Positions 27,554 to 54,200 of a DNA stretch of 64,000 nucleotides are shown piece by piece. The notes under the pieces were generated by a model. That model worked only from the letters and a program-made list of their open reading frames with translations. It did no database searches and was not told the DNA's origin. Both the position numbers and the translations under genes were made by a program. Each line of letters begins with the position of its first letter. Position 1 is the first letter of the stretch. The stretch comes from Thuidium tamariscinum (lineage: Eukaryota > Streptophyta > Bryopsida > Hypnales > Thuidiaceae), in NCBI GenBank assembly GCA_947034885.2, contig OZ019759.1, positions 9,178,501 to 9,242,500 of the forward strand, written 5' to 3'.

Positions 27554-29601
27554 CTACTTCTTTCCGGGCGGAGACCGGAACATCTTGACCGGCTTAGGCT
27601 TCGGCTTAGCCTTACCTCGCACCTTGGCCCGACTCTGCTTTGTTTCTGCCAGTGCCTGGTCTGTGTCAAAGTATAGATCCGACTCATCACCAGAGTTGGT
27701 CTCCTCCTCCGAGTCGTCATCTCCCTCATTTGGCTCATTGTCCTCTTCTTCTATTCGAGCCTTCTGCTTCACCGATTGAGACTCCGGATTCTTCGTCTTG
27801 GTCAATCTGGTGATGGGCGGATGGTAGACTGCCTTGCTCTGTGGGGTCAGCTCTTCCGCTCTCTCGACGATCCGGACTGGGCCCTTGCTTGGAGATCTGG
27901 ATCCAGATCTGGTCTTTAGTATCAGGCGGACCTGAACCGCCGTCTTCACCACCTCCCCGGACTTTTGTTGTACAACCACGGTTGGTGACGACTTGCTCGG
28001 AGACATGCCGCACAAGTCTATGAACTTGGTCTTCCTCCGTGGTGGGGAAGCTCCCTTGGCGACCTCCTGTAGCACGCTCGGTTTGGGCTCCGGTCCCTTA
28101 GACTTCTCGAGCTCTGATGCCTTTGGGTCTTCAGTTCCAGTCAGTTGAACCAGCTCCTTCGTCACTTCTTCGGCCCTCCTTTCTTCCTCCTTCAATGGCT
28201 CGGTCACCCTGGGTTCTTCCGTGATTGTGGTTGTTGGAGGCTGCGACTCCGACTACTCCATCTTTGGCTCTTCCGGTCTCGAGACCGGAATAGAACTTGC
28301 CTGGACATCGGTGATGACGGTGCGCCACTTCTCCAGAGTCACCTCCATCTTCTTGTTGTAGCCCACCAACGTTGTGAGCAGTTGGTGGCCTACCATCTTG
28401 CCTGCCTCCAACACCTTCTTGTCGAAGAATATGGCCTTGTTGACAACCTCGCCTGGATGAGTGATAAACTCCCGGATTTCTCCGAGAGTGTTCCTGGCCT
28501 GGGTGGAGAGCCGCTTCTCCTCGTCCAGTTCTTCCTGCTTCTCGTACAACTCCTTCTTCAGGGCCGAGACCTGATTGGTCATTCAAACCACCTCTCCCTT
28601 GTCTCAACTGTCATGCACTTCCCGAATCAACTCACCCAAATTCTCCATGACTTTGGAGGGCGGCACATTGCCTAGGGCTCTGCATAGCCCCTGCAACACC
28701 CTCCTCTCGTCCATGTATTGCCTCCTGAAATCATCTAGGTTCTGGATGATTCTAACTAAGGGATCCTGGTCCCAGACCGGATCTGCCCCTTGGGTTCCTA
28801 CTGTTACTGTGGGATCCTCCAGCGGTAGGTTATCTCCTCCCACATCTGGTTCCTCCCTTCTCTCTTGGAGTTCCCCTTGTTGCTCTTCATGGCCCTCTTT
28901 TTCCGAGAACTCTTCTTCCTGGTCCCCATCGACGTTCGGGTTCTCTATATCGTACTCAATCATGGCTGCACCCACATCGTAGGCGACCCTCTCATGTTCC
29001 CTCAAGAAGTCTAGCGAATGGTACAAATGAAACAAGAATGGTGAGATGGGGGAGGGTTTTGATCTCCCAATCCCATTCACCATTTTGATCATCTGGTCCC
29101 GCATTACTAACCCCCAATCTATCTTTCGGTCTCCTGATAATGCACCAAAAACGGTGTTTGCTATGGTGACCGTGATTCTATTTGGCCTATCCAGGTTGAG
29201 GAGTACTAGAGCAATCTCCAGTGCTTAGGCGAGATACACTCTGTGACCGTGAATCCATCCTTTGGAGTTATGGGTCTCCAAAACTTACCCAAGTGAAATT
29301 TGTCCATCCGGGAGGCCGATCCATCTCCGCCTTGCTCGAACGCATACACTTTGCACCACATCGCCACTATCCAGTCTCCGGGTAGTGCTCGAATCGTCCC
29401 CTTCCACTCGCTGGTCTAGTTGTCTAACAATTCGACCACCATCTTCTCGTCCTTCAGATTCCACGGACGACCTAGAAATCCTTCACAACCCATTTGCTTG
29501 AGGTCTCCCTTCAGCTCTAGCTTCTCTTGCTCCTCTGTGGGCACGACCGGATTGACATTCCGGAAGGCTAGACTGCAATCATCCTGCCCTTTGCCTGCCA
29601 T
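27554..29601 (-). pseudogene. Repeat-borne ORF family, copy B (degenerate)
   Basis: The start is ATG at 29601 (MAGKGQDDC). Blocks in family order are GCEGFLGRPWNLKDEKM, VYAFEQGGDGSASRMDKF, PKDGFTV, then after a 1-nt frameshift near 29200 ANTVFGALSGDRKIDW, the signature SPFLFHLYHSL (about 29030), an acidic linker, a coiled-coil-like region (28253-28582), and a basic Ser/Pro/Lys tail ending 27554. Stops include TAG at 29416-29418 and TAG at about 29192. The GC content is clearly higher than in the flanks. The long plus-strand frame at 28145-28675 is a shadow of this coding strand. Function unknown. Confidence 0.6.
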
Positions 29602-32603: not shown

Positions 32604-33936
32604 CTAAGTAGAGGCTTCAAAAACATATCCTAAATGAAGGACATGAAGATGAATCTGTTGTAATGTCGAGGGACCTTGATGTAGTGAAAGATTTTCCTTC
32701 AGAATTTGATTCTCCTCATATGGAGCCTCCTTCCATAGCCTCTCTTGCTCTCTTCTCTCGGCTTCTTCTTCCTTTTTCTTAGCCTTTCTCTCATCGAAGT
32801 CCTTGTTCTTTTTTTTCACTACCACAACTTCTAAAGCAATAGCGCTTCAAGAACACATTGTCTCTTTGTTTGCTAGAAGATTTGATTGTACAATAGGCTT
32901 CAATTTCTCATTGGCACCTAAAATAATATATTTATTAAAATGAGAGTATTCCACTGAATTGAAAGGTTTAGAAATATACTTTCTATCAACAAATATACAA
33001 AAAAGCAAGATAGTGAATCAGAACTCCAATCAACAATGCATCATATCATCAAGGATAATGCAATGAACAAAGCTATCACCATGAACAAAAACTCCTATAT
33101 TTATAGTGAGCCCAGTATTTCCAACATTCTTTCAAATGTGACATTCCAATTAATAGAAATCGTCAAGAATGTGTATGTGTTTGTAATGAGTGTGATTCAT
33201 TCTTGTAATGTATACTATATAAAGCTTGAACAATGCATTTATATACTTGACTACTATTCAGCTGTACAATATACACAACTGCTATATGTTTGATTGACTC
33301 TTAATAGTTGCCATCGCCTTCAAAATCTCCGGCCCACGACTATAACCATTATCAAATTTTTTTTATTGTTGAAGGTCTTCTAGCTTCTGCAATTGTATAA
33401 ACTTAAGATCCCATTCATCTTGCATTGCTTGAGTGACTCGGCTTTGAGAAACTCCATTGTGTGATTTTGACCTCCTTACACTTAGAGATGTCGCTCGCAT
33501 ACGAGGATGCACGACACCATGGGAACGCACACAAATCTTATTCTCTCTTGATTCATTAGGCAATGGAGAAGTTGGGTGTACTACACATTCTTGGAGTTGG
33601 AATTGCTCATATAGCTTCCTCTGCGTCAGCTTCTTCTCTGTCAATTTTTCAAAAGTGCTAGCTGTCATGTGCGATGCAAAAAGATCACTCCATCAAAGAG
33701 GCAAAGGAGAGCACAACTTCAACTGCAAAGGCGTCCAACTTGGTGGACTATCCACCACACCATCGTCCATAGGCACCACTGAAAAGTCCATTATCGAATT
33801 GGATGTGGTTGCGGAGCATAGGAAGTCTCCAGTACTCAAGATTGCATTTTGCTCGTATTCAAGAAAAGAATCGATCGAAGCGGAGCATGGCAAAGTGCCT
33901 TTTCGGACAACAAGAGCACTTCTAGGAAGGGTCTAA
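32604..33936 (-). pseudogene. Two exon-like blocks downstream of the ParB/methyltransferase-like gene
   Basis: Minus-strand blocks at about 33933-33363 and 32917-32604 look coding. The first runs through one TGA (between CSPLPL and WSDLF) and ends KLEDLQQ. The second starts after a TAG acceptor (ANEKLKPIVQSNLL) and contains a lysine/glutamate-rich coiled-coil segment (ERKAKKKEEEAERREQERL). It has one TGA. They lie in the same orientation as the large gene upstream and could be its 3' exons or a separate accessory gene. No domain recognised. Confidence 0.35.
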
Positions 33937-34355
33937 AAATAAACAAGATTACAAATCAAACATCGAGATTGATATGATTTCAGAAAACATTTAAACTACT
34001 AAACAAACAAACAAACAAAGGTTGAGTCGACCTGAAGTGGAGTAAAAAAAAATCAAAGTAAAATCGTTTCCTCAAATATTCCTTTTGAAGTAATTTCGTA
34101 CATATTGAGTGAAGGCAAATCAAACATTCTACCTAATAAGAAAACAAAGATCAAAGACCAAAGAGAGAACAAAAATAGAGAAAGGTCGAGCTGAGTTAAA
34201 GAGGAATGAAAACAAATCAAAGTAAGAATGTTTTCTCAGATATTTATTCAAAAGTAAATCCATACATATTGAGTCAAAGGAAGTCTAAAAGCCTATATAC
34301 AATTTAGGTCACCTCAACCTAAAATTACAGCAAGCGAAGCATGTAAAGCTGGTCC

Positions 34356-35145
34356 CTATCTCAAGGTACTCGAGTGTCTGACGATGTCCATTAGCCTATT
34401 GTACTCCTTACGGTTCCTCTCATCGCAGAGCATTATGCGCCCCATTTTTCCGAACCTATTTTCCCTAAAGGATTTTAAACCATTGTTGCAAGCAAGATGG
34501 AGGCGTTGGAACCAATGCAAAAGAATGTCAAGAAGGAACGTGTCCTTTGGACCGTTGCCCTTGTTGATCCACGTGTCTAGGAGAACAACATTCTCTGCCT
34601 TGTTCAAAATGTGTTTGACCGGACTATCGTTGACCGTGACCGTATTAGTGGGCTTGAACTTTCCTCGATTGTTAGTAAAAAGTTGACTAAAGTCTTTCAA
34701 AACAGTTCCTTGGATGTGCCTGGTTCCTTGAATGTTGTGACATACCTAAAGCTATCCGTGCACTTGAGTGTGGTGCAGGAGTTTTTCCCGTATACAAAAT
34801 CAGGATATTTTAGGCCGTTGAAGAGGAATAAGAAAATTTCCTCAGTAGTGGACTTTTTCATGGAGCTCCACACTAAGACGTATGCAAATAGAGTTAATTG
34901 TCGCAAAAACTTTGCACAGTTTGGACGGACATAAACTAATTTTGGTCCAACAAGAACAGGGGAGGTTGCCGAATGTGGCTGCCTAGAGTCTTGAAGACAC
35001 TTTGCAAAACCCTTGGACTTTGCATCCTCTGTGACATAGAGGATCCCATTCAAGTCCAGGACGACGTGCAGCCACCTATTTGCCAACTTGGAACTCAATG
35101 GGACCGAAACAACCTCCAACGATTCCCCACGAAGACATGCAGGGT
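34356..35145 (-). pseudogene. FCP1/SCP-like HAD phosphatase region
   Basis: The exon starts after a CAG acceptor at 35145. The block HVVLDLNGILYV (Asp at about 35056) matches the nucleophile motif of FCP1/NLI-interacting HAD phosphatases in its plant D-x-N-G form. YVRPNCAKFLRQL and AYVLVWSSM (motif II Ser) follow. After a 1-nt frameshift near 34700 come KDFSQLF, then TVNDSPVKHILN where the family has DDSP, then VVLLDTW and LLDILLHWFQRL. Order and spacing fit the family well. These enzymes dephosphorylate phosphoserine proteins such as the RNA polymerase II tail. Here the first Asp of the second acidic pair is Asn, so activity is doubtful. It may be the C-terminal part of the gene upstream or a separate gene in tandem. 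Confidence 0.65.
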
Positions 35146-35320
35146 CTGATCCCTACTATCAAACAAAGAGAGACGATGCTAGTCACTAATCCACCAATTG
35201 TAATAGAATTTTCTAAATAAAAAAAACTAGTAAGTTAAGAAACAAACGATGCAAATTTAAAAAAAGACAAAGTATGCCATCCTTCATGTCTGTTCAAAAT
35301 CATGTATTCATTTCACTAAC

Positions 35321-35565
35321 CTCAACAGCAGAATCTGTTATTATATTCCCATCATCCAAGGAGACAAGAATAAAAACCTCCAATTCCATTCCTACAGCGT
35401 CAGGAACATATATGTTAACACGAGTAATCTCATCTGGAAGAGTAAGATTATCCTCGCTCACGCATGGATCGGATTCCAACACAACAGGCGCAATATCATT
35501 TGGAGAGGTTGCCTTTGCAATTTTAGACTCAATGCTATAAGGATCACTCATGACATTCATAGCGC
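35321..35565 (-). pseudogene. Exon between linker and HAD region
   Basis: The exon is bounded by a CAG acceptor (exon start 35565) and a GTTAGT donor (exon end 35321). It encodes an acidic segment with SDPYSIESKIAKATSPND and ends DDGNIITDSAVE. An ATG near its start (MNVMSDPY) could be the initiation codon of a separate HAD phosphatase gene. No domain. Confidence 0.4.
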
Positions 35566-35818
35566 CTGCCATAGAAAAGAAATCAAAATAGAATGTGAGA
35601 ATGCCGTATAGTAGTTTTTCATTAAATGAGTGATATAATACACAATTGATTTTCAAAAATCAAAATGATGATTTCCATGGTTTTTTCCACTTTGGAAATT
35701 AGCTTAACCAAGAAAGTGAAGCTCCTAACATCCTGTAATATTAAATACAATCTATGATACACATTAGGTCGAGCTGACCTAAAATGCCAAGAACCACATG
35801 ACATTCAACTAGAAGCAC

Positions 35819-37163
35819 CTGCAAATGCAGCCGAGTTCTCAGGCACAGTTGACGTATCATCAATCGTAGCAGGGACTACATTGACCATGACGCATTCCAC
35901 GAGTGTCGCAACCACGACGTCCTCATCCACGTCCATTTGAACGACATCGGCTTCGTTGGTCACTGAATTAGGAGGTGACGTGGGAGCAACGAGCACTAGT
36001 AGAAACCCTTGTTTAATGTGACAAGGCCTAATTTTTCTTGACGGATTTTGCTAAGCATCAAAAGTAACAACCCATGTTTTTATGTCAGCATTGATGTTGT
36101 GTTGAACGTTTTTATTGACATAAAAACATGGGTTGTTACTTTTGATGCTCAGCAAAATCTGTCAAGAAAAATTAGGCCTTGTCACATTAAACGGGGGGTT
36201 CTACTAGTGGAGTTCACTATTTGTGGGAGGCAAAGGAGGCTCTTGGATTTTTTCCTTCTCTGCCTCATCAGGAGTAGGAGCATTGCCTTGTACGGGCCCA
36301 ACAGTCGAGACGGTGGCAGCAAAAGCTGTACTTTACGGGACTAATGGTGTAATGTCCACAGGTGCTGGCATGAGAACCTGAGGAGCCACAAACAAAGTCC
36401 CTTGCTCGGGAAGCCCTAATCCAAAGTTCAGGAACGACCTGAAAGATCCAAAACCTCCACTCTGGTTCAATAAGGGAATTCCACCATGTCCTAGAAGATA
36501 CGAGCTGGTAGGATTGATGCCTTGCAAGTGGTTCACAATGACAACCAATGTTGCTTGATTTTCAGCAAATTTAGAGTAAATCAATTGCTTGATTTTATCA
36601 AGCTTCTCCGCTTGATTGGCATGCAGAGCAAGATTTTGACTGATGTCTTTCTTTCGAGTCGCCCTCATCTTCGCTAATTGCGTCCGCATGTCCTCTTCAC
36701 TATCCTCATCGTCTTCGTCTCTTCTCCTCTTCCCTTTAGTTCTTTCCCACGCATGTGTGCTCACCGGCTGCACATCCATTAGCTGCCCTAAGGATGCTGA
36801 GGAACCCCGCACACTTTGAGAGAGATTAACTAATGTGCAATTCTCTTCATTTAGAGGCATGGGGTTTGTATATTCGATCTTATCCTCGGTATTGCCACCA
36901 TCATCCAACAATTCTTCAACCTCAACTTCCGTCCTCCTAGACCTCGTTGAGGGTGTTCTCTACACGTTTGACAAAACTCTCCTACGACGTGAAGATGAAG
37001 GGGTGGAGCCATCTACAAGTTTGCGTGGGTGAATTTCTTCATCCACAAAATACCTTCTTTGAAGAAAGTCCTCCTTGTCAAGTGACTTAACCAACTCCAC
37101 GACTTCGGTCCATTGTTCAGACTTGTTAGAAGCCCCGACCGTAAACACCCTGAATCCCAGCAT
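35819..37163 (-). pseudogene. Methyltransferase C-terminal part plus charged linker exon, split by a MITE
   Basis: The exon starts at 37163 directly after a TTTTACAG acceptor. It continues the methyltransferase-like fold (MLGFRVFTVGASNKSEQW), then has a basic patch (SSSRRRRVLSN), a nuclear-localisation-like KGKRRRDEDD, and a Gly/Pro-rich low-complexity tail. It is interrupted by a TAG near 36957, a TAA near 36333 and the 216-bp MITE at 35994-36209. Frames on either side of the MITE agree once a single GAG target copy is counted. The donor is GTGCTT at 35818-35817. Confidence 0.5.
35994..36209. mobile_element. 216-bp foldback MITE, CACTA-type ends
   Basis: It begins CACTAGTAGAAACCC and ends with the complement GGGTTCTACTAGTG. 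Both flanks carry GAG (35991-35993 and 36210-36212), a 3-bp target duplication. The arms (about 90 bp each) are nearly perfect inverted copies around a centre near 36105. It sits inside a protein-like exon. Its terminal 11 bases match those of CACTA element 2 at 49998 and of the non-autonomous element at 40528, the likely source family of its transposase. Confidence 0.9.
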
Positions 37164-37331
37164 CTGTAAAACCATATACAGATTTAATTAAAAGTAAAGA
37201 TATGTATAGCACTCCCCCGTATATAAGATAAGGAAGGAAAATATTTAGGTCAAGTTGACCTAAATAGGGAGAATGAAGAATACAAGAAGAAGGTATGCTA
37301 TTCAGGTCAAGTTGACCTGAATGGTATTCAC

Positions 37332-38684
37332 CATTGCAACACAAGTGAATTTCGATCCTGCAAACACCGACAAAATATTCATAGACCCAAGACCAAAACG
37401 CTTAAGGATATTCAAATAAAATTCCATGCGCAGTTGGGTATTGTGAATCCGATACGCTGTTTTGTTGTAGAGTCTTGGCTTGTTAAAAACATTGGTATCT
37501 GGGGCCCAATATGTTTTGTATGGAAGTTTCCACTCAACTCTCGACTTGTCCTGAAAGAACATGAGATACACTTTCTCAATGGCCTTGCTGTTGTTGGATG
37601 AGTAGTCTTCCATCCTTTTGTTCTTTACTGGCCAGTAATCACCGTATTCAATTTTGTATTCTTTCATAATAAGATTCTGGTGAATAAAATTGAGAACTTG
37701 TGTGTTCTCAATGGTGTCAGTGCATATAAACATCCACCTTGGAATATCCTCAAGGAATGGCTTCTTCATTGTTTGGAAAGACGCCATCACCGCTTCAAAA
37801 TAAGGCTTGAGCGACATGCACTTGCCCTTGTTCAATACCACTAGAGTATATCGAAAGTCGATAACTCCAAATCCCATGTTGGGTAGTGTATCGGCCCTCC
37901 ATGTACCCGCTGGCCATTTGTGGTGCTTGTCCACTTTGATTTCGTATATTCTATAATGAGCCAGAGTTTGTGGCTTTACAAAATTACTTTGTTGCTCAAG
38001 AAATGTCTTAAAAAACTGAGTAGCATATGGAGAAATGTCCACTATGATCTTGTTTTTAGACCTCGTCTACTTTGCATCTTTTTAGAAATCTTCACTAGAC
38101 TTCTCAAGAAGGACATTCATGGTAGTATTGGTGATTGAGCGGTTCTCTTTGAACTCTCTCCACTTGTCGGCGTTCAAAGTGTTGAATGCATTCAACAAAC
38201 CTAGTGATGGGTCAAGGATGTAAAGTTCTCTCTTCACAAGGTACTTTTTCTTCTGCTATTCTACCCAATCCTTCGCTGTGTAGCAGCTTTCCAAAACTGA
38301 CCCTATCATTTTTACAGTCACCTTTGGATACTGAAGGTTCTGCCACTTGGGATAAATGTGGAGGATATGCTCGGCAAGCTTTGCAAGATCATTGTAAGAG
38401 AGGTTCCCTAGCCACTTAAAGAATTTGTGTGTAAGGTTTCCACTCTCTGATTTCCACCCTGCCTTATCTTTAAATTTCATTAGTATATCACGGTCGATTA
38501 GCTCTCGATGCGCTGCGCTCAAAATAACCTCACTCCATAAGTTGTAGACGCGATTTGGTGCTATTATTATTTTTAACTCATTTATAATTTTGAGCTTCTC
38601 CTCTGCATCTTTCCCTCGTGATGCTTTTTGAGACTTCACTACGTCTAGCATCGCGAATCAGGTGTTCATAGCTTTGACAAACTC
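37332..38684 (-). pseudogene. Permuted DNA-methyltransferase-like domain exon
   Basis: The exon runs from a TTCTAG acceptor (exon start 38684) to a GTGAAT donor (37331-37330). The first half is helical and continues the ParB-like protein. The second half has, in order, GFGVIDFRY (37848-37859 covers DFRY) in the place of motif IV (DPPY), then aromatic-rich strands, QLRMEFYLNILKRFG, and NILSVFAGSKFTCVAM (VFAGS at 37353-37367). The last resembles the SAM-binding motif I, DPFAGSGT. Motif IV before motif I is the permuted beta-class order of bacterial N6-adenine/N4-cytosine methyltransferases, which are often fused to ParB-like domains. Both motifs are altered, so activity is doubtful. Breaks: TGA near 38660, TAG near 38255, TAA and TAG near 38060-38090. 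Confidence 0.5.
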
Positions 38685-40527
38685 CTAGAATAACAACAAT
38701 ATAGCAAACAATGTCACAGCAAATTAGGTTGTGTTGACCTAAATGTGAATGATTTTCATTTATAACAATGAATAGGGACACTAAAAGTTTATCATATACT
38801 AATTAGGTCAAGTCGACCTAAAATCACATACCTTGAACTTCACTGGGTTCTTTTTGTTGTGAGCGTTCCGCCTCGCCACTGATGCAGTTCCGATGGAGGC
38901 AACATCCTTTGAATTTCTTGGCCTCCCCATATTGATCCAGCATGTTCTAGCACCAAGAATATTGGTCAACCAAGAGGGCTTCAAAGCCACGAAATGATTG
39001 ACACAGTTATAGTATGCTAAAATTGTTCTCAAGATTTCATTGCTGTCAAACCATACAATATAAAAATCCCACTCTTGGAAGTGCTTAAGGATGTCTTCAT
39101 CTACATTCTTTTCCACCATCAATTTGCTGGCGGAGACACTATGTTGACCATTCACAATATAAAATTCATTCGTCTTTAGCTGGTCCCAATCCTCTCTCTT
39201 GGGCTTTTCAACCTGGTCGACGGGCATGACGCATAACATCTGCTTCCCTGTTTTATCTAGCATATGCATCAGATAATGAAACATGTCGACGACAAGCCGC
39301 TACTTGTGACTTTGAATGTTGACATTAGCAGGTGTAGCTATCAATTTTTCAATGGAAAGTTTTTTTTTCTCATCGATGTTAAATACATATGCATCACTAT
39401 AGGTCGCCTAATAGTTCTTGTATGCTTCTATTGACTCTTTGTAGTCAACATTGCGCTTGAGGTCATGCACGGATGGAACATTGGTGACAGCTAATGCAAA
39501 GCTCAGGTCCGCAGGTGCAGGTTCGCTTTTGTCCTTTTCAAGAGTCTTCATAGCGGATGAAGAAGCAAGGTTGCTCTTCCGGGCTCTTGTTGTTGGTGTC
39601 CCAGTGTGTGTACTTCTCTTGGTACCCCAACTTTGTTGCGTACCTGGCGTACCTTGAGAACTTTGTCCTTCTACATGACTAGGGGGATCGTGGGATACAG
39701 ATTGGGTAGCTACTTGAGTCTTCTTCAAATCAAGCTTGCCTTTTAGGACCGCAAAGTCCACAAATAATTGCCTTAGCCTATCGCAGAGATTCTTTCCCAT
39801 CACTTGGGCTCCCTTCTTAGATCTCCAATATCCAACGTCCACCTTCTTCTCCAGCTCTGGGATTTTGCCATTGTACTCCGAATTCTCTAGGCTGTGGATG
39901 AAGTGACTCACGTAGAAGAAGATCTTCAAGGAGTCGATGACGAGTGTAAAGTGATACTACTCTTCATCTTTTTTCCCAATCTAAGCAATCACACAATGGA
40001 TCTTGATCATTGTCCCTATATCAGGGGAAATCTCCTTGATCTTTTCTTTGTATGAGATTAGGTGATAGGGAAGCTGGTCCTTGTACTTGCGGCAAAAGCA
40101 GTACCTGTGGGTCAGGGTTTTTTTTTTAGGCAATTAAATGCCCAATTTCTTCAAAACAAAAAGTGCTGGATCAAGCCTATAGGAAAAAAATGGGATAAAT
40201 CATTCCAAAAATGCCATACTGCAATTGCCTCACCACTCTTAGAGCCACAATGTTTTCAAAATTAACTATAATAATAAAAACAATGCCAGCAGTAAGTACT
40301 ATGTAGCACCACCAAAAATGAAAATTATGCCAAATTGATGAGATTATGTCAGGCTTGATGAGCATCTGAAGCCTAACAACAAACAAAATTTAATGCCCGT
40401 GTTGCCTAAGTACTCTTGCAAGCAGGGTTTTTTAAAGCCTATATCACTGCCAATAATTTAAATACGGTGCCTTAATTTCTTTCATTGAAAGAGGTAAGCT
40501 ACCAAGTTGCCAACCATAACGCAAGTG

Positions 40528-42814
40528 CACTAGTAGAAAATGACGTCCAAATCAACAGAAATATGTTAATTTTCTGTTGATTCGGGTACTGGAATGTCCA
40601 ATTTCACATTTTTTTGTTACGGGTGACATTTTTTATGTTGATTTGGACAGTAAGTGACAAAATCAACAAATTTTTGTTGAACACTTTTTGAACCTTCTAA
40701 AATATTTTGGAATATTTTGGAACCTTATAGAATCTCTTAAAATCTTTATATTACAATGTCTTTATAAAAAAATTAAGTATTTAGATTTCTATGTTCAATA
40801 AAAACCGCAGACTTTGGAGGTCATTTACACATAGTAAATAAACATTTTTCAGAGAACTTTCAACTAAAAAAAGTTGTGGAATTAAATTTGACTTTCATCT
40901 CCAACAAATTTGACTTTCACCTGATTAATCAAAATAGAATAATTCAAAACTTTTCATGTATTTATAAATGTTGGATACTAATTTCAAATGTCTGTTTCAA
41001 AATAATAATGATATTTTAAGAATTTTTTGAGATTCATAAGCATCCCAAAGATTAATAAAAATTACATATAATGTAATAAATTTTAAATCATATTTGTCAA
41101 AAGAATTACCTAAATTATTGTACCTCAAAGCTATTTTGGGGACACACATCGACCTGTAAAAACTCTAGAGGGAAAAAAAGTTAAAAATTGTATCTAAAAT
41201 CTCTACGTTGCTAAAATATGCCATTTGATTATTTAAAGGTTGACCCTTAAGTACCCAAGCCTTTTCAAGTCTATTTGGAAAAAGAGTATGGGCTTATAGG
41301 TATTTCCAATAAAGCCAAAAAAAAATTTCAAAATTTCATTGTATAGATGTTTAAGGAACTTGCTTATTTGTATGCATATATATCAATTTTGAGTGAAAAA
41401 ATGCATAGGAGTTGTAAGATTATAACAAGAAAAATGCACTTTTTTTTCAAAGTATGTTGCCCTTCCCTACAATGTTTCAAAAATTTGCTATAAAAATTTC
41501 TAGAATTTGAATGTGCCATAAACAACTACAATTAGTGTTAACATGATATGATGCACTTTTAAGAAACTAAATATTACGTGAAAATTTATCAAAATCATTA
41601 TACACTCCACTTTGCAATTATTGAAAATTTGAAATGCAATTTATAAAGAAAAAATCACAATTACCTCCAATTCAGCAGTTGCATGTTCAATTTTGTAGTG
41701 TCCAAAACGATGAAAAGAGTTTACTATTTTCATTGGGACTAATTTTAAAACAAATGGATAAGTACAATTTCTTAAATTTCAAATCAAGTGAAATTATTGA
41801 ACTTTCCTCAAACTCGGAAAATTAAGTCAATTCACAAGCTTTTCTTTATACTATTGGTATGCATATGCCTTTGGGAACCTTTCTAAATTAAACATATATA
41901 TTTTTCACTAAAAAAAATGAAAACTTTCATTAGTCAACCTTGAAATTGCCTATAAAAGTTTTTAATAAGTCAATCATTCAAAAATCGGTGTTTTTAAAAT
42001 TCAGCATACTTTGGAGGCCGTTTGCACATAGTAGAATAACTTATTTTCTTTAAATTTCAACAAAGAAAAGTTCCTAAATGAAACCAAATTTCACCTCCAA
42101 AAATTCGTTTCATATTTGAAGAATTAGATCAAAATCTATGGGCAAAATACAGAGAGGGGTTCAAACTGCCTTTCTTGTTTTACACTTTTAAACATCCTCT
42201 CGGAATTTTGTTCATAACTTTTGAATTAAGACTCAAAATTGCAAAAGGATTTTTAGAGGTGAAAGTTGGTTTCATTTATCAACTTTTCTTAGTTGAAATG
42301 TTTTTCAAAAAATTTAACATACTATGAGAAAAAGTCTTTCAAAGTCTACTGACTTTCAAAAACAAAGAAAAATAAAATAGAAAACTAAGTAAATAAAATC
42401 GGAATACCTTGGTTGTCATGAGTGTTCTTTGGTGGTCTGATGGTTAAGGCAGGGAGTTCTGAACCCCGAGGTGTGGGGTTCAAACCTCATGGGTGGTGCC
42501 CTGCCTAGGGGGCGCTGCCGCGTGGCAAGCGCCTCTTGGCAGCTTGTAATTGGACATGTTTGTTGTCATTTTTGTGTTCAAATTAACATTTTTGGGGGGT
42601 GAGAATCGACACTTTTTGGTTGGAAATTAACATTTTTTTTGTTGTCAAAACAACACTTTTGCGTTGACAAATAACACCTAATTGTTAATTTGAATGTCCA
42701 AATCAACATTTTTTTGTTATGCAATGACCAAATTAACACGTCCTAATTAACAACTAAATTAACAAAAAAATCAACATTTTTTTGTCAACTTGGACACTGA
42801 ATTTTCTACTAGTG
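40528..42814. mobile_element. Non-autonomous CACTA element nested in the hAT
   Basis: It starts CACTAGTAGAAAATGACG and ends with the complement ATTTTCTACTAGTG. GTG flanks both sides (40525-40527 and 42815-42817), a 3-bp target duplication. The ends continue with repeated motifs on a theme of 'aatcaacatttttttgtt' and 'ttaacaa' in the outer 150-250 bp, like subterminal repeats. The body is AT-rich, with no transposase and only one short frame. It must have depended on another CACTA element, and element 2 shares its first 13 bases. Confidence 0.9.
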
Positions 42815-42817
42815 GTG

Positions 42818-44636
42818 CCAGTGCCTGTATTTATGTAAGTCTAGGGTCAAGGATTCTCAAACAGTCAGACTGCCTCTATCACTGGGGTTGGACGCTGGCT
42901 AAGTGGCTTGCCTGGCACCCTAGGCCCTAGCCGTTTCAAATTTTGGAAGGGCGGGATTGGGGGAAGGGCAGAGTGGTGGGCTAGGTTGGGCTGGGTCAGT
43001 TTCATCGTCGTTGTGGGGGCAGGGGAGACGGGTTGCCGGTGGACCTTACCCCTTGGGCGGACAGTTTGCGCCTCGCAGGTCGGAGCAACAGCCGGGTCGC
43101 AAGTTGAAGTAGAGGGCTTCGGCATCGGAGGTGAGGAGGTCGGACTGCTGGAGGTGCGGATCGAGCTGGTCGGGGCGGAGGTTGTGGATCTGGTCCGCTG
43201 GTCAAGCGCGGAGTTGAGTTGGGCGAAGGCGGGGGTGGAGCTGCGGTAGGGCGGGGTTGGGCTGAGCGACTCAGCTGTTGCGGTGGACGGACTGGTTGGG
43301 TGGGGCGGGGTTGGGCTGCAGTGGTTGGAGTGTTGGATTGTCGGAGGCTACGGACCTGCGGTGGTAGGGGCTGGGGCTTCGCCGCTTCGACATTGGAGGT
43401 GGAGCTTCAACAGTGGAGGTCAGGTCGTGCCGGGTTGAGGTTGCGAAGTCAAGTCTGCATTCTGCACTCTCCAAGTATACTGGCATAGGGTTGTGAACTT
43501 GAGACTTGCAAGTTGATTGAATATTGATTTATTGGAGATTTGGAGGTTGTAAATTGTTTGGCTGTTTGATTTGGAGGCTCCGATTTGATTGTTGTAATTC
43601 TTGGCAGGCAATGGCAGCAATGGACTTGGAAGTGGGGTGTAGAACTGCACATGACTAGATAATGCAATACCATAATGAAGGTGGCGGCTGCAGCTGTAGT
43701 GATTAGATTTGATGATCAAGGTTGTGATTAAGGATTCAAGTGGCGCTCCAGTAGTCCAAGTGTCCAACTGCTCTTATTGGCAATCTTTAAATTTTTTAAG
43801 TTTTTGATTTCTAACTCATATTTGAGTCATTAAGTGGAAATGAAGTTTCTTGTTTGGCTGTTTGGGTGATTGGTATTTTGGATTGTGCTTTGTGTGATTT
43901 TAAGGAGATCTTGATTTTTTCATTACACAATGGAGTGAAGTGAATGAATACTTGTTACAGTTGTTATTAAGTACCAATAGATTGAATCATTAAGCTATTA
44001 CTGGAGTAAGGCGGCTGCACCAGGCAGCTTGGTAGGAAAATAGTGAGGAATTTCAAATTTCAAAATTTTACTCCAAATATTGATTAATGACAAATTTTAG
44101 ATTTTAATTTTGTTTCTTGTGCCTTCTTTTGCAGGTTTTAATTTGGCTTGTTGTAACTTACTGAGGCAGTTGTACTGTAAGAGAGATTTGAATATTGGAA
44201 ATTATTGTAAATGTGAAATATTTGAACTGTTGTAGTATTGTAAGCTTGTATCCCTAGTATTGGTAGTGAGGTGCAACTTCTTTTAGGATTTGGAGCTCTG
44301 CTGATTTGGTCTGATTGTCCATCTTGTTGCAACTTGCAAATGCAGTTGGATCATTTTCATGGTTTGTTGTTTTTGAGGTTGGTTTCTATAGTATTCACAA
44401 CCTTACTGTTAGTTTTGCCTTAGAAAGTTCACAGGATCACTTTAGCAATTTTGAGAGGTGAAGTGGTTTGAGTTAGTTGAGTTGTTGAGTGCATAAAAAT
44501 TTAAATTACAATGTTTTGTTTGTAGAGTGAACTTGATTGCATATTGGGATAGTTCATCTCGTTTTGCTTTTAGAGATTGTTTATCTACTACATTCTCCTT
44601 TAGAGATCATTCTTCAGAGGTTGTTGGTGACTTGCT
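42818..44636. other. hAT leader with a GC-rich segment
   Basis: Positions about 42900-43450 are GC-rich and strand-skewed, full of tggg/gggc words, unlike the AT-rich rest of the element. The skew creates long frames on both strands with low-complexity translations (Gly/Val/Trp on +, Pro/Arg on -), which I do not take as genes. It could be a promoter/leader region. 43450-44636 is ordinary AT-rich leader. Confidence 0.4.
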
Positions 44637-47600
44637 ATGGAAAGTTCTGTTCCTATAGATGAAGGCTTGGCTGTTGTAGCGAATGCAGCAGCCTTGAAGA
44701 GAACAGCAATACTTCGGGCTAGGAAAATGGCTAGAATTCAAAAGGAAAAAGAAGCAGCTGGTCGTAAAACACTTCAAAGTAGTCATTAAAGAGAGTGGGC
44801 GTGAGAAGGCAAGACAGAAGAAAACGTTGCAGTCATATTTTTTAGCTTCTCATAATCCAGATAATGGGGATGCTATTGCAGTACAAGAGTTGTCTGTTCC
44901 ATCAATAAATCAGACACCTTCTTTAGATTCGAATAGTATTTTCCCCATGCAAGAGGCAAATGTGTCTTTAGACACAATCCAAAACTTTGTTGGAGTACAA
45001 TCTGCTTCAACGTCTGTTGTTGTCTTAGGAAGTATTCCAGGTACAGTTCTCTTATCTAGTAATGATTTAGCCTTCACTGTCTCTGAGGATAATCCCAATT
45101 ATGTTGCTTTACATAACTTGCATGTAGCATCTGAGAATGAGGAAGTATCTACAGATGGTGACTATGACATTCTTCCCCCTCCCAAGCGTTCTAAGAAGAA
45201 TTATGATTTAGCACGTAAATTTCAGATGGAGTGGTCTGCTAAATTACCTTGGGCTGAAATGGTTTTAGCACCTGATGGAGGATTGCATATGGTGCGTTGT
45301 CATGTGTGCACCGAAATGGGAAAGAAACCCTATACAATGGGTCCCAAACTTTACACTATGTAGACTCATGAGAAGAGGAAGAAACATAAAAGCAACATGT
45401 TGTTGTATCCAGCCAAGCGACCTACTATAGTGTTGGAGCAGATCAATAGCAACAATACCATTGAGTCTAGGAAAAAACGAGTGCAGTTTGCTACTTTGTT
45501 TCAGATTCTCAGTGAGGGTAGGCCAATGATTGAGTTTTCTTCTAGGTTTCCTTTATATGAGTTGATTGCAATCCCTGATATACCAAGGATGTATTGGAGT
45601 GATGGAGCAAGTTGGATTATGGCATCTCATATGTGGTCTGTAGTTCAAGATAGAATGAAGGCCATTGTTGGGGTTGCTATGTACATTGCCATCACTGCTG
45701 ATGAAACTACAGCTGTGGATAACTGCAGCTACATTGTTGTCCATTGTTATGTAATGCAGAATTGGACCCGTGTTCCCATGCTCATCTTGTTGTAGAAGCT
45801 TGAAGCAAATGGAGCTTCAGCAGACAATTTGACTTCTGTCATTATTTCAGCTTTGAGTGTGAAAATGGAATTGTTTGCAGAAGCCATTGCAGCCAAAGTC
45901 ATGTGTTTTGGTGCTGATGGAGTAGCTGCTTTTCAAGGTCAAAGAAGTGGAGTTACAAAGCAGATCCAAACCTCTCATGCCCCTTTTGCCCAAGGTGTTC
46001 ACTGCATGGCTCATAGATGCAATCTGGCCTTCAAGACATTGTCTTCTTTAGACATTATGTCTGTCATTGAAGATTTGTTGAGAGTTTGTCACAACTACTT
46101 TGCATGCAGCCCTAAGAAGTATGCTGAATTCCACAACCTTGCATTGTTGATGGAAACAAAAGGCTTGAAGTTGCTCAAGAATGTAGCTACCCGTTGGGTG
46201 TCTCTAATTGATCCTTTGAGGCGACTTTTAAGTGAATACCGCTCAGTTGTGGCCAAGCTCAATGTTGATTCTACAAACAGTAAAGAAACTATAAGATTTT
46301 CTTTTATATGCTTGTTTCATTGAATTTTTTTTGACTAAGTTGTATGATTTATTTAGTGCTAATTTTTTTAGAACTCAGTTGTAGAACTAATTTAGTGCTA
46401 ATTTTTTTGAAACTCAGTTGTAGAGTTGGTTTAGTGTTGATTTTTTGAAATTCAAGTGTAGGATTGGTTTAGTGTTGATTTCTTTAGAACTAATTTATGG
46501 GTTTAGGATAGTGCTGATTTTTTTGGAACTCATTTGTAGGTTCTTTACATGGTTGATTTTTTGGACTAAGTTGTAGGACTTATTCAATGTTGATTATTTG
46601 AAACTAACTTGTGGATTTTCTATAGTGCTGAATTTTTTGTTACTAAGTTGTAGGACTTTTTTAATGCTGACTTGTTTGGTACTAACTATTAAGTTGTAGG
46701 ACTTATTCAATGTTGATTATTTGAAACTAACTTGTAGATTTTCTATAGTGCTGAATTTTTTGTTACAAAATTGTAGGACTTTTTTAATGCTGACTTGTTT
46801 AGTACTAACTATTAAGTTGTAGGACTTATTCAATGTTGATTATTTGAAACGAACTTGTAGATTATCTATAGTGCTGAATTTTTTGTTACTAAGTTGTAGG
46901 ACTTTTTTAATGCTGACTTGTTTGGTAATAACTACTAAGTTGTAGGACTTATTCAATGTTGATTATTTGAAACTAACTTGTGGATTTTCTATAGTGCTGA
47001 ATTTTTTGTTACTAAGTTGTAGGAATTTTTTAATGCTAACTTGTTTGGTACTAACTAATAAGTTGGAGGACTTGTTTTGTATTGAATTTGTTTGACTAAC
47101 TTCTAGATTTTTTCTAGTGTTGAATTTTTTTGATTAACTTGTGGTGTTTTTTTTGGTTGATTATTTTTGACTGGTTTGTAAGATTTTGGTGCTCCTGAAT
47201 TTTTTGGACCAATATGTGAAATTTTTTCTACTGCTGAATTTTTTCTACAACTTGAAGGTTTAGATACATTCTTTGATTTGGTACTAACAATATTTTATAT
47301 TTTGCAATGCAGAAATACATGAGGACAAAGGCCAAAGGTGTTTTGGCTAAGCTCATTGATCCTTATGTTGTTCTAGGTATGACATGCCTCTTGCCACTTC
47401 TTGAAAGCATTGATAATCTGGTCCTCTTTGCCCAAAAACGAGATGTGCACATTTTAGATTTTGTGGCTGCCCAATAAGTTTTTCAAGGACACTTGTTCAA
47501 ATTCTACTTAGACCTTGATCAAGCCTTTGCTACTGAGGAATTTTGGTCCTTCAAGCAACTTCTAGATTGCTCTCATGAGCAAATCCACATGAAGTGGGTG

Positions 47601-48734
47601 TCCATGCTAGATTTGCCAATGGATTTAAATTCTGATGGGCATGATTCATAGCTAGCTTTTGTCTCAGGTATGCAAACTGTATTTGCAGTGCATGAAGGGC
47701 AATATGTGACCAAGGAATCATTTGGAGACATTGTGAGCATGGTAAAAGATGAATGTAAAGGTATGTCCTATTGTTGTATTTTATTAGCTAAGTTATTTAT
47801 CTACCACTATACTTTATTGGCTCTCTTGTGAAATTTATCTAGTGCTGACTTTTGTAGTCACAATTGTAGAATTTGGCTACTACTATTTTTTGGAGTTAAA
47901 TTGTGGAATATTTCTATTGCTAAATTTTTTGGTTAAGTTCTAAAATTGTGTATTTTGTTTTTTTTGGCTTAAATTTGATATTGTCTACTGCTGTATTTTT
48001 TGAGTTCAATTCCAAAATTTCCCACTGTTGTATATTTTTGGCTTAGTCCTAAAATTGTCTATTATTATATTTTAGAGATCAATTGTAAAGTTTGAAACTA
48101 TCATTGACTGTGGAATATGGACCTTGCAGGTGCAGCATAGCAACTCATTGATGAACTCAAATCTAGATTTCCAACCCATGGTATTATGGATGCCCTCAGC
48201 TTGGTTTATCCACAGTATTGGTTACAAGGTGATTGTGAATTTAGCTTCCGAAAACACCTTCATGTGATCAAAAAAACTTTTGGTGAGCCAAAATGGATTT
48301 CTGGAGAGGAAGGCCCTAAACTTGTGCCACCTGTCTTAGATTGCTCTCTGCTAGAGTTGCAACAACCAATGTTTAAGCTAGCTATGTTTTCAAATTCCAT
48401 GGCAGCAATGGAACCACTATTTCTGGTGAATCCTCTTGCAAAGCTGTGGAGGACTTTGGATGCAAACTCAGCACTTGCCAGTATTTTTAGTGAATATGTG
48501 AAACTTGCAGAGATTGCCATGATTCATGTGCTTGGTTTTGTTGAGGATGAACGTTGCTTTTCATCCTTATTATTCTTGAAAGATAAACTTCGAAATAGGC
48601 TGGATGCTAATTTGGGAGTAGTGGTTGGCATGAAGGCACAGCAAGTGTACACCATCAACAACTTCCCCTATGAAGAATGTTTTGAGCAGCGGGTTCATTC
48701 AGCTAAGCGGTACCGCTATGGTGTGACAGCATAG
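44637..48734 (+). pseudogene. hAT transposase (ZNF862/KIAA1586-like type), degraded
   Basis: Likely exons are 44637-46279, 47313-47760 and 48130-48734 with GT-AG introns. The ATG at 44637 starts MESSVPIDEG. A 1-nt frameshift near 44785 precedes LQSYFLASHN. A Cys/His region follows (VRCHVC), then the RNase-H core with ITADETTAVDN (Asp near 45697) and CFGADGVAAFQGQRSGV, HCMAHRCNLAF, and VATRWVSLIDPL. The last exon has the dimerisation-type end (LAEIAMIHVLGFVEDERCFS, LRNRLDANL). It catalysed cut-and-paste movement of the enclosing element. Stops: TAG 45361-45363 and 45793-45795, TAA near 47475, TAG near 47650 and 48138. Family assignment is strong. Confidence 0.85.
46568..47059. repeat. 123-bp tandem repeat, four units, in hAT intron 1
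   Basis: Units beginning AAGTTGTAGGACTTATTCAA start at 46568, 46691, 46814 and 46937, and a diverged fifth starts at 47060, giving an exact 123-bp period. Units are nearly identical. Flanking DNA (46320-46567 and 47060-47280) shows older, shorter degenerate versions of the same phrases (tttagtgctgattttttgg, aacttgtagg), about half the unit length. The array lies entirely within intron 1. Confidence 0.9.
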
Positions 48735-49250
48735 TAAATATCTGTAGCTAGTTTTATCTAGATACATGGCCCTTTAGTCTCTCAATGATGCAATAATCAT
48801 CCTTTGCATGGTGATTAATTACTATTCATCTGTTTGGATTTTTAGATTGCAGTTTCCAAAATGACCCTTTTGTTTCCATCATCCATGTATAGCTTTGGAA
48901 TTTGCCTAGACAATATATTTGGTCAATGAAAATTATCAAGGAAGCCCAAGTGCACCTTTTTAATTTATTTTTGTTGCCTCCTAAGTACATTAAAAAACAT
49001 TGTAGTTGCCAATATTATAATAAAAATTTGAAAATTATTGCCTATTCTAAATCCTAACAATAACCTCTTGATGCCATGTATTTCTTTGCAATTAATATAA
49101 ATATAGCCAATAGTCTTCAAAATTACCTAGAAAATTGCCATCTACAATCCTTGGCAAAATCAATGAAGGAGCCACTGAATGGAATACATTTTTTGTAACA
49201 AGGCCACATAGCCATTTGTCCTAAAACCAAAAAAAAACCCTGTTGTGGGT

Positions 49251-49997
49251 CATTGGAATGAGAAGAAGGGACCAACACTCCATTGCATCTGGATTGATGA
49301 ACTCCCAGTACTCTCCTTTGTTATTGAAGTCATCGCCGCCATCATCGTTAGCAATGATATTCATTCTTTTAAAGAATGACTCCAACTTTGGAACTTGTTC
49401 CTCTATCTTGTAGGAACATTGTTAGATCAATTGGTATGACACATTAGGTCGAATCAACCTAATCTTGCATTTGTCATAGAATTTTACGGTGTCATTTTCT
49501 TTACAAAGTCGGTACTTCTCTTGGACACAGCTTGCGGTTAGATTTGTAGTTGCAATTTAGTTCGCATTGACCTAAACTAATGCATGTACTTGAGTTTTTT
49601 AATATTTTACAATTTATCTAGTTTTTCATTGAGGCGGACATCGAAATTTTTGAGTGTTTTCATTATTGTCAATTGATTTTGTCTTAGCTATCTAAGTAGT
49701 GTACATGTTGATTTGGGTCGGGTCGACCTAAACCAACATGTTCACTTCATGGCTGTGATTCTCATCTTCTTCTAATTATAGTAAGGTTGACCTGAACTAT
49801 TATCGACCTAAACCGTAATGCACCGTTTAATTGGTGTCGTTAGAATGTACGCAACATGTAACCAAAAACAGTTTGGCCAATTTCAAACATGCAGATTTAC
49901 ATATGGATTCTCTACATTAGAAATGCTCACATTAATATGAGATAATCAAGATTGCATTCAGTAAACGTGTGCTTTTCATTTTCTTTCTCACTACTAT
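49251..49997. other. 5' side of the ParB-like gene
   Basis: This contains the start of the split exon (to 49406), an apparent upstream exon (about 49470-49530), three quasi-palindromes and two half-sites. It ends at the terminus of CACTA element 2. No start codon could be fixed, so the 5' end may have been removed by the element 2 insertion. Confidence 0.4.
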
Positions 49998-50029
49998 CAC
50001 TAGTAGAAAACCTTGTTGAATCCAACGGC

Positions 50030-51205: not shown

Positions 51206-54200
51206 TCAATGTCGAACTTGTAGACCGTCAAAATCCACATCCCTACCTGCTGTAAGAAATTCTATGTCTACCTTTTCACTCTTGCGATCTCCACGACGTC
51301 CTCTCACTTCTGTACCGCAAATGACTTTCCAATCTCCTCCGCTACCATTTTTGCGCTCAATGTCGTTGGAGAAGAAAACCTGCTGACATTGTGTTGGGAA
51401 TGCAAAGGAATCCACCCCCAATGGCATGCAGTGCGTGAAATTCCCTACAGCAAACATGTATTTGTCACGAATAACATTTGCATTCGCTGATCCAACTTTA
51501 GCTGGTACCTACAAACACACCAGGATGACACAACAGTGGCTGCGATAGTTTAGTTCTAAAATCTCCTGAATCCACCCAACGTATTCCACAGTTTGCCAAT
51601 TCCCTTGTTCAATGGAAGACCTCCCTCTACAAAGACGTAAAACACATGCTGCTATACCACTATCGCAGGTCACTTTATCTTCTATGCTTTGCACACGTAA
51701 GTGCATTCCATGGGCATACATTGCCCTATAAGCTGTAGCTACTATCTCAGGCTTCTTTGAGGCCTCTATAACATCTGGAGAAGGTCTTCGCACTCCATGC
51801 CTTGATTCTTCAACTGCTTCTTGTAGCCATTCCGCAAACTTTGGCAAATTCCTATATTCATCTGAATACTGTAAGAGGGTCTGCCACCCTAGACGACGAA
51901 TGAAGTTTGCCCTGAATTGCTGTCGACTCACGCGCCTCTCTTCATATGCCATACTGTAATTTCTGTTTCACATTCACAAAAACGCTATGAGTCTTTAGAC
52001 ACATTGCTTTCTTCCACCTTATCCACTAACAACGTTATTGGGACCAATGCCATCTCCTCTACAACACGACTTCCCATAACAGAGTTTCTTACTCACAACA
52101 CCTATAGTACGTGTTCACCTCCTCCTCTGCATCAGCAAGTCATACATAATACGACACTGCTGACTTCAACAAACACTGCCTTTACCAATGCTATTCTTTT
52201 CATGTACAACATAAATTTACAGAAATCGGCACTCACTGTCTCCATTCTTTAAGATCTAATGAGTTCGATAATACAAACTCATGAGCCCATTCCCGAAACT
52301 CCTCTGACATTCGACGCACCCACCTACTCCCTTGCACAACTTCATCATTCATCCTGTGCTCCTCCTTATCATCCCAGACACGACAAGACGTTCCTTGAAA
52401 TCGTTGCAAGTACTCCGTACAATATCCTAATGTCTCAGACATTGCATACCCTTCTGCTATACTAGCTTCTGGTCTAGCATACGTTCTCACATATTCCTTT
52501 AAAGTTTTCATGTACCTCTCCATTGGATACATCCAACGACTATAAACTAGTCCACATATATATAGCTCTTCCACAAGATGAATCATCAAGTGTGACATAA
52601 TGTCCATAAAAGTTGGTGGAAATTCCTTTTCCAGCACGCAAAGAGCATCTGCGGCATCTTCCAAATCTGCATCTCTTTCAGAGATTTTTATTTCTCTTGC
52701 ACATAATCTTCGAAAGACTCGACTCACCTTCATCACTGCTTGTTGAACACCTTCACTAAGTACATTGCGTAGTGCCAATGGCAAAACCTATTTGCAAGGT
52801 CCTACAAAATTACAAAGCAATTACTGAAGGTTCACAAACAATACTTATACTTATATGCTACTGAACTGTCTCCTACTCTCCTTCATCTTATCTAACAATT
52901 GCAAGTAATACCTAATTATCATTTCTATGCATACCTCAATGCAATATAGGGCTGTTTGATGACATACACTAACAAGTCAGTCAAATTTACCAACAAGAGA
53001 AGCCTACCTCTACAACAAAGTTATTTCTACTTGGCTTCTTCCAACTATGTCCTACCTTGCAATGCTTCGTTCCTTGTTTGTAAACAGAATTCACTATGTC
53101 ATACCTGCTGCATTAGCACATGAAAGTCGTGGGTTTTCATATATCTCAATTTTCCCTCCTGCAGACACTTGTGTATGGCACCTACATATTGGCTTGATGT
53201 TTTCAATTTCTTAATTATCTCCATCACTGTGGTCTTTCCACTCCCACTCAAAATATAGGGTGCTGAAGGCATGTGGAAGTCATCGCAGTTGCTTTCTGTT
53301 GGAGTGAGCCACAATTCTGGTCTAATTTGCAGAGCTTCCATGTCCTGTCTACTACCAATTGAATCTTTTCCTCCCAACAGTGTTTTTGTTATATTCTCGC
53401 ATAAGTTCTTCTCGCAGTGCATTGGGTCTAGCAAGTGCTGAATTAGAAGATCCTACAATAATCCAACACATGCAAACCATCTATTACTTACATAAATAGA
53501 TGTAAAGGCGAATCTTAGACATTGTATAGGTTAATCTTTCCACCACCATGTCATTATATTCCAAGTTTCTTTCAATGACACAATTTGTTCATTAAATCCA
53601 TTTTAGAAGATTCCATACCACATTGACAAGCTCCTATCCACTGCAGCAATTACCTTTCCTACAACGACATTAAGAACTACTGCTATAAGTTGCATCTCTT
53701 TGCACAAGTTCGTTACATAGAGCCTTCAATACAATTCAACCTATTATTGCACTTCTGTACACTTGCCCATTCCTAAGACTAATGTTTGAAAAACTTTCCC
53801 TATGCTCTCTTTCAGTTAGGCAGAGGTAATCTAAGAGACGTTACATTTTCTTTTTCTATATATTCAAATTCCCTAATCACAGTGAACATTATCATCCCTA
53901 CAAAAACACTACGTCCTTCACATTCTGAACATGAAATCCTTCCTTTACAATGTGAACATTTCCCAACAAAACGCATCCTCTTTTTCCATTCAACATTCAA
54001 TATGGACATAAAATTATTATTGAACTCTTTGAACCACACTTTCTTGTTTATGTTGCTTTTCATTGCATATATTTTTATAACATAGCACTTGCTCTGAATA
54101 ACTTTCATTCCTTCAATAAACTGAAATCTCATTCCTTCTCTTAAGAAGTCTGATACTCACTGTCCAATATGGAAGGTCGTTCAACGCACTCCTTCTCTTC

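Follow-up and report, generated by a model that had tools for sequence, protein, structure and literature searches.

Sola elements generate 4-bp target site duplications (TSDs), can exceed 15 kb in size, and are present in the moss Physcomitrella patens and seemingly uncommon in flowering plants, according to the available parts of PMC10741241. Sola1-1_Ec32 of Ectocarpus is 21.5 kb long and carries a ParB-like/N4-N6 methyltransferase gene opposite the transposase; in the portions of that account that are available (PMC12477816) the authors suggest that such algal accessory proteins may bind and mark their own transposon, and no target sequence is named. A literature search for ParB/methyltransferase proteins in transposons returned only PMC12477816 among the papers listed. 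A 64,000-nucleotide stretch of the moss Thuidium tamariscinum (assembly GCA_947034885.2, contig OZ019759.1, referred to here as C11:9178501-9242500), called the window below, contains the decayed 3' third of a giant Sola-like transposon. The element is a plant relative of this kind, which is known but has hardly been described, and it adds a testable novelty: palindromes at recurring places in the element, which, judging from sequence, the protein of its accessory gene may well bind.

The preliminary description of the window had read one minus-strand path of exons at 32604-49530, as a possible mobile or domesticated descendant of a ParB-methylase fusion, perhaps joined to a host phosphatase. 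Its sequence blocks, all on the minus strand (NGQHS near 39150, GFGVIDFRY near 37850, NILSVFAGSKFTC near 37360, LDLNGIL near 35060 and NDSP near 34630), were all located and are real. The interval 36210-40100 holds 21 stops in the reading frame of the gene, introns included, versus 51-88 in the other five frames. A search of the 363-Mb genome (19 contigs) rules out chance, with six close relatives that match block by block at 51-80% identity; four more distant relatives show 25-56% identity over the matching parts. The alignment of E1 and E2 in the relatives to the window copy is unbroken. The accessory gene is composed of the following parts.

49251..49421, minus strand: first part of exon 1, severed by a hAT-type insertion; 62-67% identity in six group-1 relatives
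38830..40104, minus strand: exon E1 (remainder of exon 1), with the ParB-like segment and NGQHS; four in-frame TAG
38685..38829, minus strand: intron after E1, with two palindromes
37332..38684, minus strand: exon E2, a linker and the permuted-methyltransferase-like domain (VIDFRY ... FAGSKFTC); four in-frame stops
37164..37331, minus strand: intron after E2, with two palindromes
35806..37163, minus strand: exon E3 and C-terminal tail, with a miniature inverted-repeat transposable element (MITE) inside; two in-frame stops ahead of the MITE

Exons E1-E3 of the window copy thus hold 10 in-frame stops (seven TAG, two TAA and one TGA), and this copy of the transposon is dead. Relative L114 has the counterpart of 49251-49421 joined to exon E1 in a single open frame of 499 amino acids.

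The 15-bp palindromes of the window follow the pattern AGGTYRANTYRACCT, which occurs at 8 sites with at most one mismatch and at 11 sites with at most two, all within 34019-49798, against Markov expectations of 0.15 and 2.65 per 64 kb, respectively (20 samples). All 11 lie outside the mapped exons. The seven palindromes of the 33.4-40.1 kb stretch fall in the 1,389 of 6,528 bases counted as noncoding, a conservative count that took in the 267-base first exon of the downstream NIF/FCP1-like gene. Their positions are as follows.

38805..38819: palindrome AGGTCAAGTCGACCT, about 10 bp past the splice donor of exon E1
38726..38740: second palindrome of the E1-E2 intron
37304..37318: palindrome AGGTCAAGTTGACCT, past the splice donor of exon E2
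37247..37261: second palindrome of the E2-E3 intron
35766..35780: palindrome between the accessory and NIF-like genes
34306..34320 and 34019..34033: palindromes in a presumed intron of the NIF-like gene
49446..49798: upstream cluster of one palindrome (49446) and three weaker sites (49559, 49715 and 49784)

The variable pair in the 16 half-sites of the eight best window palindromes is CA in eight, TG in four and CG in four, with no other pair (never TA); therefore, AGGTCGANTCGACCT was set down as the undecayed form, preceding CpG decay. It was derived from the window alone, ahead of reading other copies, and the later genome counts are independent of the window consensus. The genome contains 316 exact AGGTCGANTCGACCT sites versus 2 for the reversed pattern used as a control. 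In the six group-1 copies, the number of sites ranges from 6 to 11, most of them in the AGGTCGANTCGACCT form, and copies C9, C2 and C11b have two palindromes in each of two introns plus upstream sites. Distances between sites and copies were taken with 74 copies out of the 150 listed and, for each motif, with its first 50 listed sites. For AGGTCGANTCGACCT, every one of the 50 sites so compared (of 316) has a group-1 copy no more than 35 kb away; assuming 60 such copies, this distance takes in about 1% of the genome. The palindromes of the giant element occur ahead of each of the two gene sets and at intron positions that recur. A literature search on the motif letters turned up only unrelated subjects.

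The group-1 motif is absent from the fetched 19 kb of each of four divergent copies. Copy g3C2 carries AACTCGANTCGAGTT at six exact sites; this palindrome has 106 exact sites in the genome versus 2 for its control, and 47 of the 50 listed sites (of 106) are nearest to copies of less than 43% identity. Copy g4C2 carries TCTTCGANTCGAAGA at eight exact sites and one variant. In g3C6, the exact-armed palindrome is of a looser type, AAGTAG/CTACTT, and the introns of this copy contain degenerate relatives of it. A second looser type, AGGTAG/CTACCT, also occurs among the divergent copies. In these copies, too, palindromes are found directly after exons E1 and E2. Among the divergent copies examined, the palindrome sequence varies, and for two of the palindromes the sites across the genome fall together with the copy group that they match. 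TCGANTCGA is present within three of the five palindromes seen.

The ParB-like exon, used as a genome query, gave 150 scored matches among 399 candidates, ranging from 100% down to 33% identity, many of the 150 with open frames near 500 amino acids. The copies fetched were picked for long open frames and some carry stops, including one or two in E2 of each of C11a, C11b, g2C11, g3C2, g3C6 and g4C2. The sequence of C9 was covered completely, and those of C11b and C11a apart from about 4.0 and 2.1 kb of mid-element, respectively. Comparison of copies places the element lengths at 23,212 bp (C9), 23,032 bp (C11a) and 23,882 bp (C11b). The terminal inverted repeats (TIRs) of these three copies are AACAT(C/G)ATATTCATTAA and AACACTATATTCATTAA; in the C9 pair, AACATCATATTCATTAA and AACACTATATTCATTAA, the first 20 bases are equal at 16. 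All three copies with both ends located have 4-bp TSDs (GATT in C9, TTAT in C11a and TATT in C11b). Another inverted-repeat candidate, I24, was dropped as a TIR of the giant element. Towards its other end, C9 carries a DUF7869 gene (PF25273, E 2.3e-42) on the opposite strand from the accessory gene; this gene is also present in g3C2 (70% identity to C9) and g4C2 (52%). The element has the 4-bp TSD and the TIRs of a Sola element, and the DUF7869 protein is a candidate for the DDD transposase of the Sola type. The order of accessory gene followed by NIF/FCP1-like gene is common to nine of ten fetched relatives. The mobile nature suggested in the preliminary description is strongly supported by the genome matches, the TIRs, the TSDs and the DUF7869 gene.

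Within the giant element (C9, C2, C8 and C11 copies), tandem arrays of about 177 bp, near nucleosome length, lie between the two gene sets, on the upstream side of the ParB-like gene. Contig C11 (17.5 Mb) holds many of the 150 listed copies, as might suit a repeat-rich or sex chromosome.

The reading favored here, with moderate confidence, is that the gene described above is an accessory gene of a giant Sola-like plant transposon and that the protein it encodes binds to the palindromes of this same element. Through such binding, the element would recognize its own DNA, and the effect might be self-marking, autoregulation, protection from silencing or assembly for transposition. A broader scheme is put forward more tentatively, as a possibility that falls somewhat short of even chances. 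Each subfamily would encode its own DNA-recognition protein with matching palindromes in introns and upstream, formally like parS/ParB, and specificity would shift as subfamilies diverge; where the element is bound, the FCP1-like phosphatase would perhaps have transcription or chromatin as its target. Over E1 and E2, g3C2 is 31-42% and g4C2 26-27% identical to the window copy, compared with the 70% and 52% identity of their transposases to that of C9. The divergence of the accessory gene relative to the steadier transposase would suit a protein that shifts its DNA specificity along with its sites, and the contrast is overstated because the reference window copy has itself decayed (its E1 and E2 are 67-79% identical to those of intact group-1 copies).

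Several observations, in addition to this overstated contrast, weigh against self-binding by the accessory protein. The palindromes also occur beside the transposase gene, and the transposase could therefore be the binder; two weaker C9 sites, at about 1423 and 1546, are closer to the left end. The DUF7869 protein is a putative Sola1 transposase, judging from TSD, size and architecture. No NIF match was found in the stretch fetched for g3C2. The listed AACTCGANTCGAGTT sites include two nearest to a group-2 copy and one near none, and the exact-armed palindrome of g3C6 occurs three times, a family of only three. For g2C11, three palindrome searches gave nothing; its introns contain AGGTTGACCCTACCT and AGGGTGCCTCTACCT just past E1 and E2, which are degenerate, were chosen by eye and form weaker evidence. 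The ParB resemblance itself failed every statistical test. Of 300 sequence shuffles, 275 attain the ParB profile score, and for the family alignment 14 of 200 column shuffles do so; a PF02195 (ParB_N) match is absent from both the window copy and an intact copy. With the window copy left out, the ParB-like segment pairs with the beginning of the ParB profile, NGQHS falling at the place of AGH(G/Q)R, at a score that is not significant. The ParB assignment, a statistically non-significant one, is suggested by motif order and the published Ectocarpus analogue. Matches of the ParB segment to phages by tblastn (E 4 and 10) look like chance, one being antisense to its gene and the other in a protein without a Pfam match.

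The best-surviving alternative, regarded as unlikely, is that the DUF7869 transposase is what binds the palindromes and that the ParB/methyltransferase-like gene is an unrelated passenger. The TnpA sites in Spm are a model for transposase-bound sites, and the C9 sites at element coordinates 4863-5438 lie just past the 5' end of the transposase gene. However, most sites are located in the introns of the accessory gene and in two internal clusters and not at the termini. The transposase is also 52-70% identical to that of C9 where the palindromes differ, whereas the accessory E1 and E2 are 26-42% identical to the window copy, subject to the overstatement noted above.

A second alternative, which we consider improbable, sees in the accessory protein an active N4/N6 DNA methyltransferase whose substrate is the element that encodes it, e.g., at the TCGA in the palindromes. 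A profile was built for this analysis from 17 phage permuted methyltransferases. The match to the window copy extends along 160 residues (single-target hmmsearch E 1.5e-6), and none of 300 shuffles was as good in hhalign. The nine other copies listed, which do not include g4C2, gave E 2.3e-4 (C11a), 5.5e-3 (C11b) and 0.12-1.6 (the remaining seven). Among the eight copies displayed, FAGSK occurs in the window copy only, the other seven having FGGAK, FTGVK, FGGGK, FVGGK or YCGTK; given the lower scores of the other copies, that of the window copy was probably inflated by this private mutation. When the window copy is left out, the family alignment remains in register at motif I, and none of 200 column shuffles was as good, by a narrow difference (25.5 vs a best of 24.1). 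No match to PF01555 or another permuted-methyltransferase Pfam family was found in the window copy or an intact copy. The methyltransferase segment gave a single phage match (E 3) to a protein annotated as a DNA methyltransferase, which is a lead only. A methyltransferase-like fold, and with it a relationship to the permuted methyltransferases, is weakly supported by the profile match and the column shuffles.

Apart from this profile-level match, a working methylase would agree with the presence of TCGANTCGA in three of the five palindromes and with the suggestion of the authors, in the available parts of PMC12477816, that proteins of this type may bind to the transposon that carries them and modify it. 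However, the catalytic (D/N/S)PP(Y/F/W) is not kept: DFR or DGR stands in place of DPPY, and lysine replaces the motif I glycine, in all eight copies displayed. Two palindromes also contain no TCGA. Catalysis by the accessory protein is doubtful because of this D[FG]R replacement, and for the same reason the domain is probably a nucleic-acid or cofactor-binding fold and not a normal amino-methylase. Searches of the window proteins against viral contigs and genome contigs gave nothing useful, as did PDB sequence, plasmid and Rfam searches, and NCBIfam and PHROGs gave matches only weaker than E 0.02.

A very improbable explanation is that the element has recruited host transcription-factor sites for its expression, the palindromes being paired W-boxes (TTGAC). 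TTGACC, which we take to be a W-box, is present in the decayed window sites, whereas most intact-copy sites contain TCGACC, not TTGACC; the sequence also varies by subfamily while the intron placement recurs. That three unrelated host genes or pseudogenes lie side by side is scarcely credible: the 10 in-frame stops of E1-E3 and one frameshift in the NIF gene would suit pseudogenes, but the shared order in nine of ten fetched relatives and the TIR and TSD boundaries in all three copies with ends located already contradict it.

The second gene of the element encodes a NIF/FCP1-like HAD phosphatase and co-travels with the accessory gene.

33363..35569, minus strand: NIF/FCP1-like gene, with a candidate ATG at 35569, the NIF domain at 34356-35152 and a C-terminal exon at 33363-33932

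The candidate ATG is about 235 bp past the stop of the accessory gene. The FCP1-like blocks were confirmed by PF03031 (NIF), which matches the two NIF pieces joined by X with 45.5 bits (gathering score 21.8, E 8.2e-12). The window copy has a frameshift near 34695; the NIF stretch is one open frame of 266 amino acids in C9, C11b and C8a and contains one stop in the C2 copy. A single fused ParB-methylase-phosphatase gene was rejected in favor of two adjacent genes, and the supposed joining to a host phosphatase is thus not supported. The single multi-exon path survives in part: the ParB-like and methyltransferase-like exons belong together, whereas the phosphatase is a second gene and 40113-49242 is a hAT-type insertion.

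The window copy and its later insertions comprise the following features.

32922..49815, minus strand: 3' third of the decayed giant Sola-like copy, interrupted by later insertions; 3' end from copy comparison
32922..32945, minus strand: decayed right TIR AATAATATATTTATTAAAATGAG, which is AACACTATATTCATTAAAATGAG in other copies
40113..49242, plus strand: hAT-type element in exon 1, with ends CAGGGTTTTTTTT and AAAAAAACCCTG; coordinates derived from the end sequences
40528..42814: CACTA-type insertion within the hAT-type element, with TIR CACTAGTAGAAAA and TSD GTG
35994..36209: CACTA-type MITE inside exon E3, with 3-bp TSD GAG

The alignment of C9 to the window covers element coordinates 16202-23207 only, and the transposase was not found in the window, where the 5' part of the element is missing. 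The upper limit of the copy is set by palindrome half-sites near 49800 and is not a true end. The hAT-type element is flanked by the 8-base sequences ACCCACAA and ACCCACAG, which agree at seven of eight positions, and intact relatives of the accessory gene are without it. An early scan for its TIRs and TSDs gave nothing convincing, and the ends became clear only through the intact copies. It is presumably a hAT element on the basis of its termini and motifs; Pfam gave no match on the joined transposase pieces. Its transposase was rejected as part of the giant element since it sits inside exon 1 between the near-identical flanks.

Other features were observed in the window. A minisatellite with 39- and 123-bp periods (46321-47172) and an ARAGORN tRNA-Ser(GGA) call (47858-47952, plus strand), which may be a pseudo-tRNA or chance, are located within the hAT-type element. 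The CpG observed/expected ratio is 0.17 over the 44-48 kb stretch. An additional CACTA-type 5' end (CACTAGTAGAAAA) is present at 49998, and its partner end was not found within the window. CACTA transposase remnants (Transposase_21, DUF4218 and sub-threshold DUF4216) flank the element on both sides, at 2021-6077 (plus strand) and 51509-55564 (minus strand). The CACTA-type elements and transposase domains, together with the occurrence of Sola elements in Physcomitrella patens, are in keeping with a plant and perhaps a bryophyte. Two look-alike open reading frames, at 28604-29224 and 62408-62983 (both minus strand), encode PFLFHLYHSL and PYLFHLYHSL; they are perhaps gag-like genes of a long terminal repeat element and have no informative Pfam match.

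Among known systems, the FCP1/NIF-like HAD phosphatases (PF03031) resemble the second gene in their domain match; here the gene is inside a transposon, and LDLN and NDSP replace the canonical LDLD and DDSP. The phage fusions of ParB_N (PF02195) and N6_N4_Mtase (PF01555), e.g., that of Streptococcus phage phiGBSVK-A, share the domain order with the accessory protein, with the motif I region in register; in contrast, the plant proteins have no such Pfam match, span at least about 300 residues from NGQHS to VIDFRY, and have lost DPPY and the motif I glycine. N4CMT of bdelloid rotifers is likewise a eukaryotic permuted-type amino-methyltransferase, which according to the available parts of PMC8885841 has SPPY and measured activity, whereas the gene described here belongs to a transposon and has neither DPPY nor SPPY.

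If the favored reading is true, a eukaryotic transposon would tell its own DNA from that of its host by a private DNA code, which would bear on the persistence of giant elements with passenger genes in plant genomes. The closest system is Sola1-1_Ec32, compared here by its description in the available parts of PMC12477816. Both are giant DNA transposons (21.5 kb and, here, 23 kb) in which a ParB-like and methyltransferase-like accessory gene lies opposite the transposase. The present element differs in its plant genome, the co-travelling NIF/FCP1-like gene, the palindromes that vary among subfamilies and the replacement of DPPY. What is new is that the candidate targets are defined to the base, vary among subfamilies and are accompanied by open-frame copies of the protein; the self-binding proposal is therefore open to a direct bench test.

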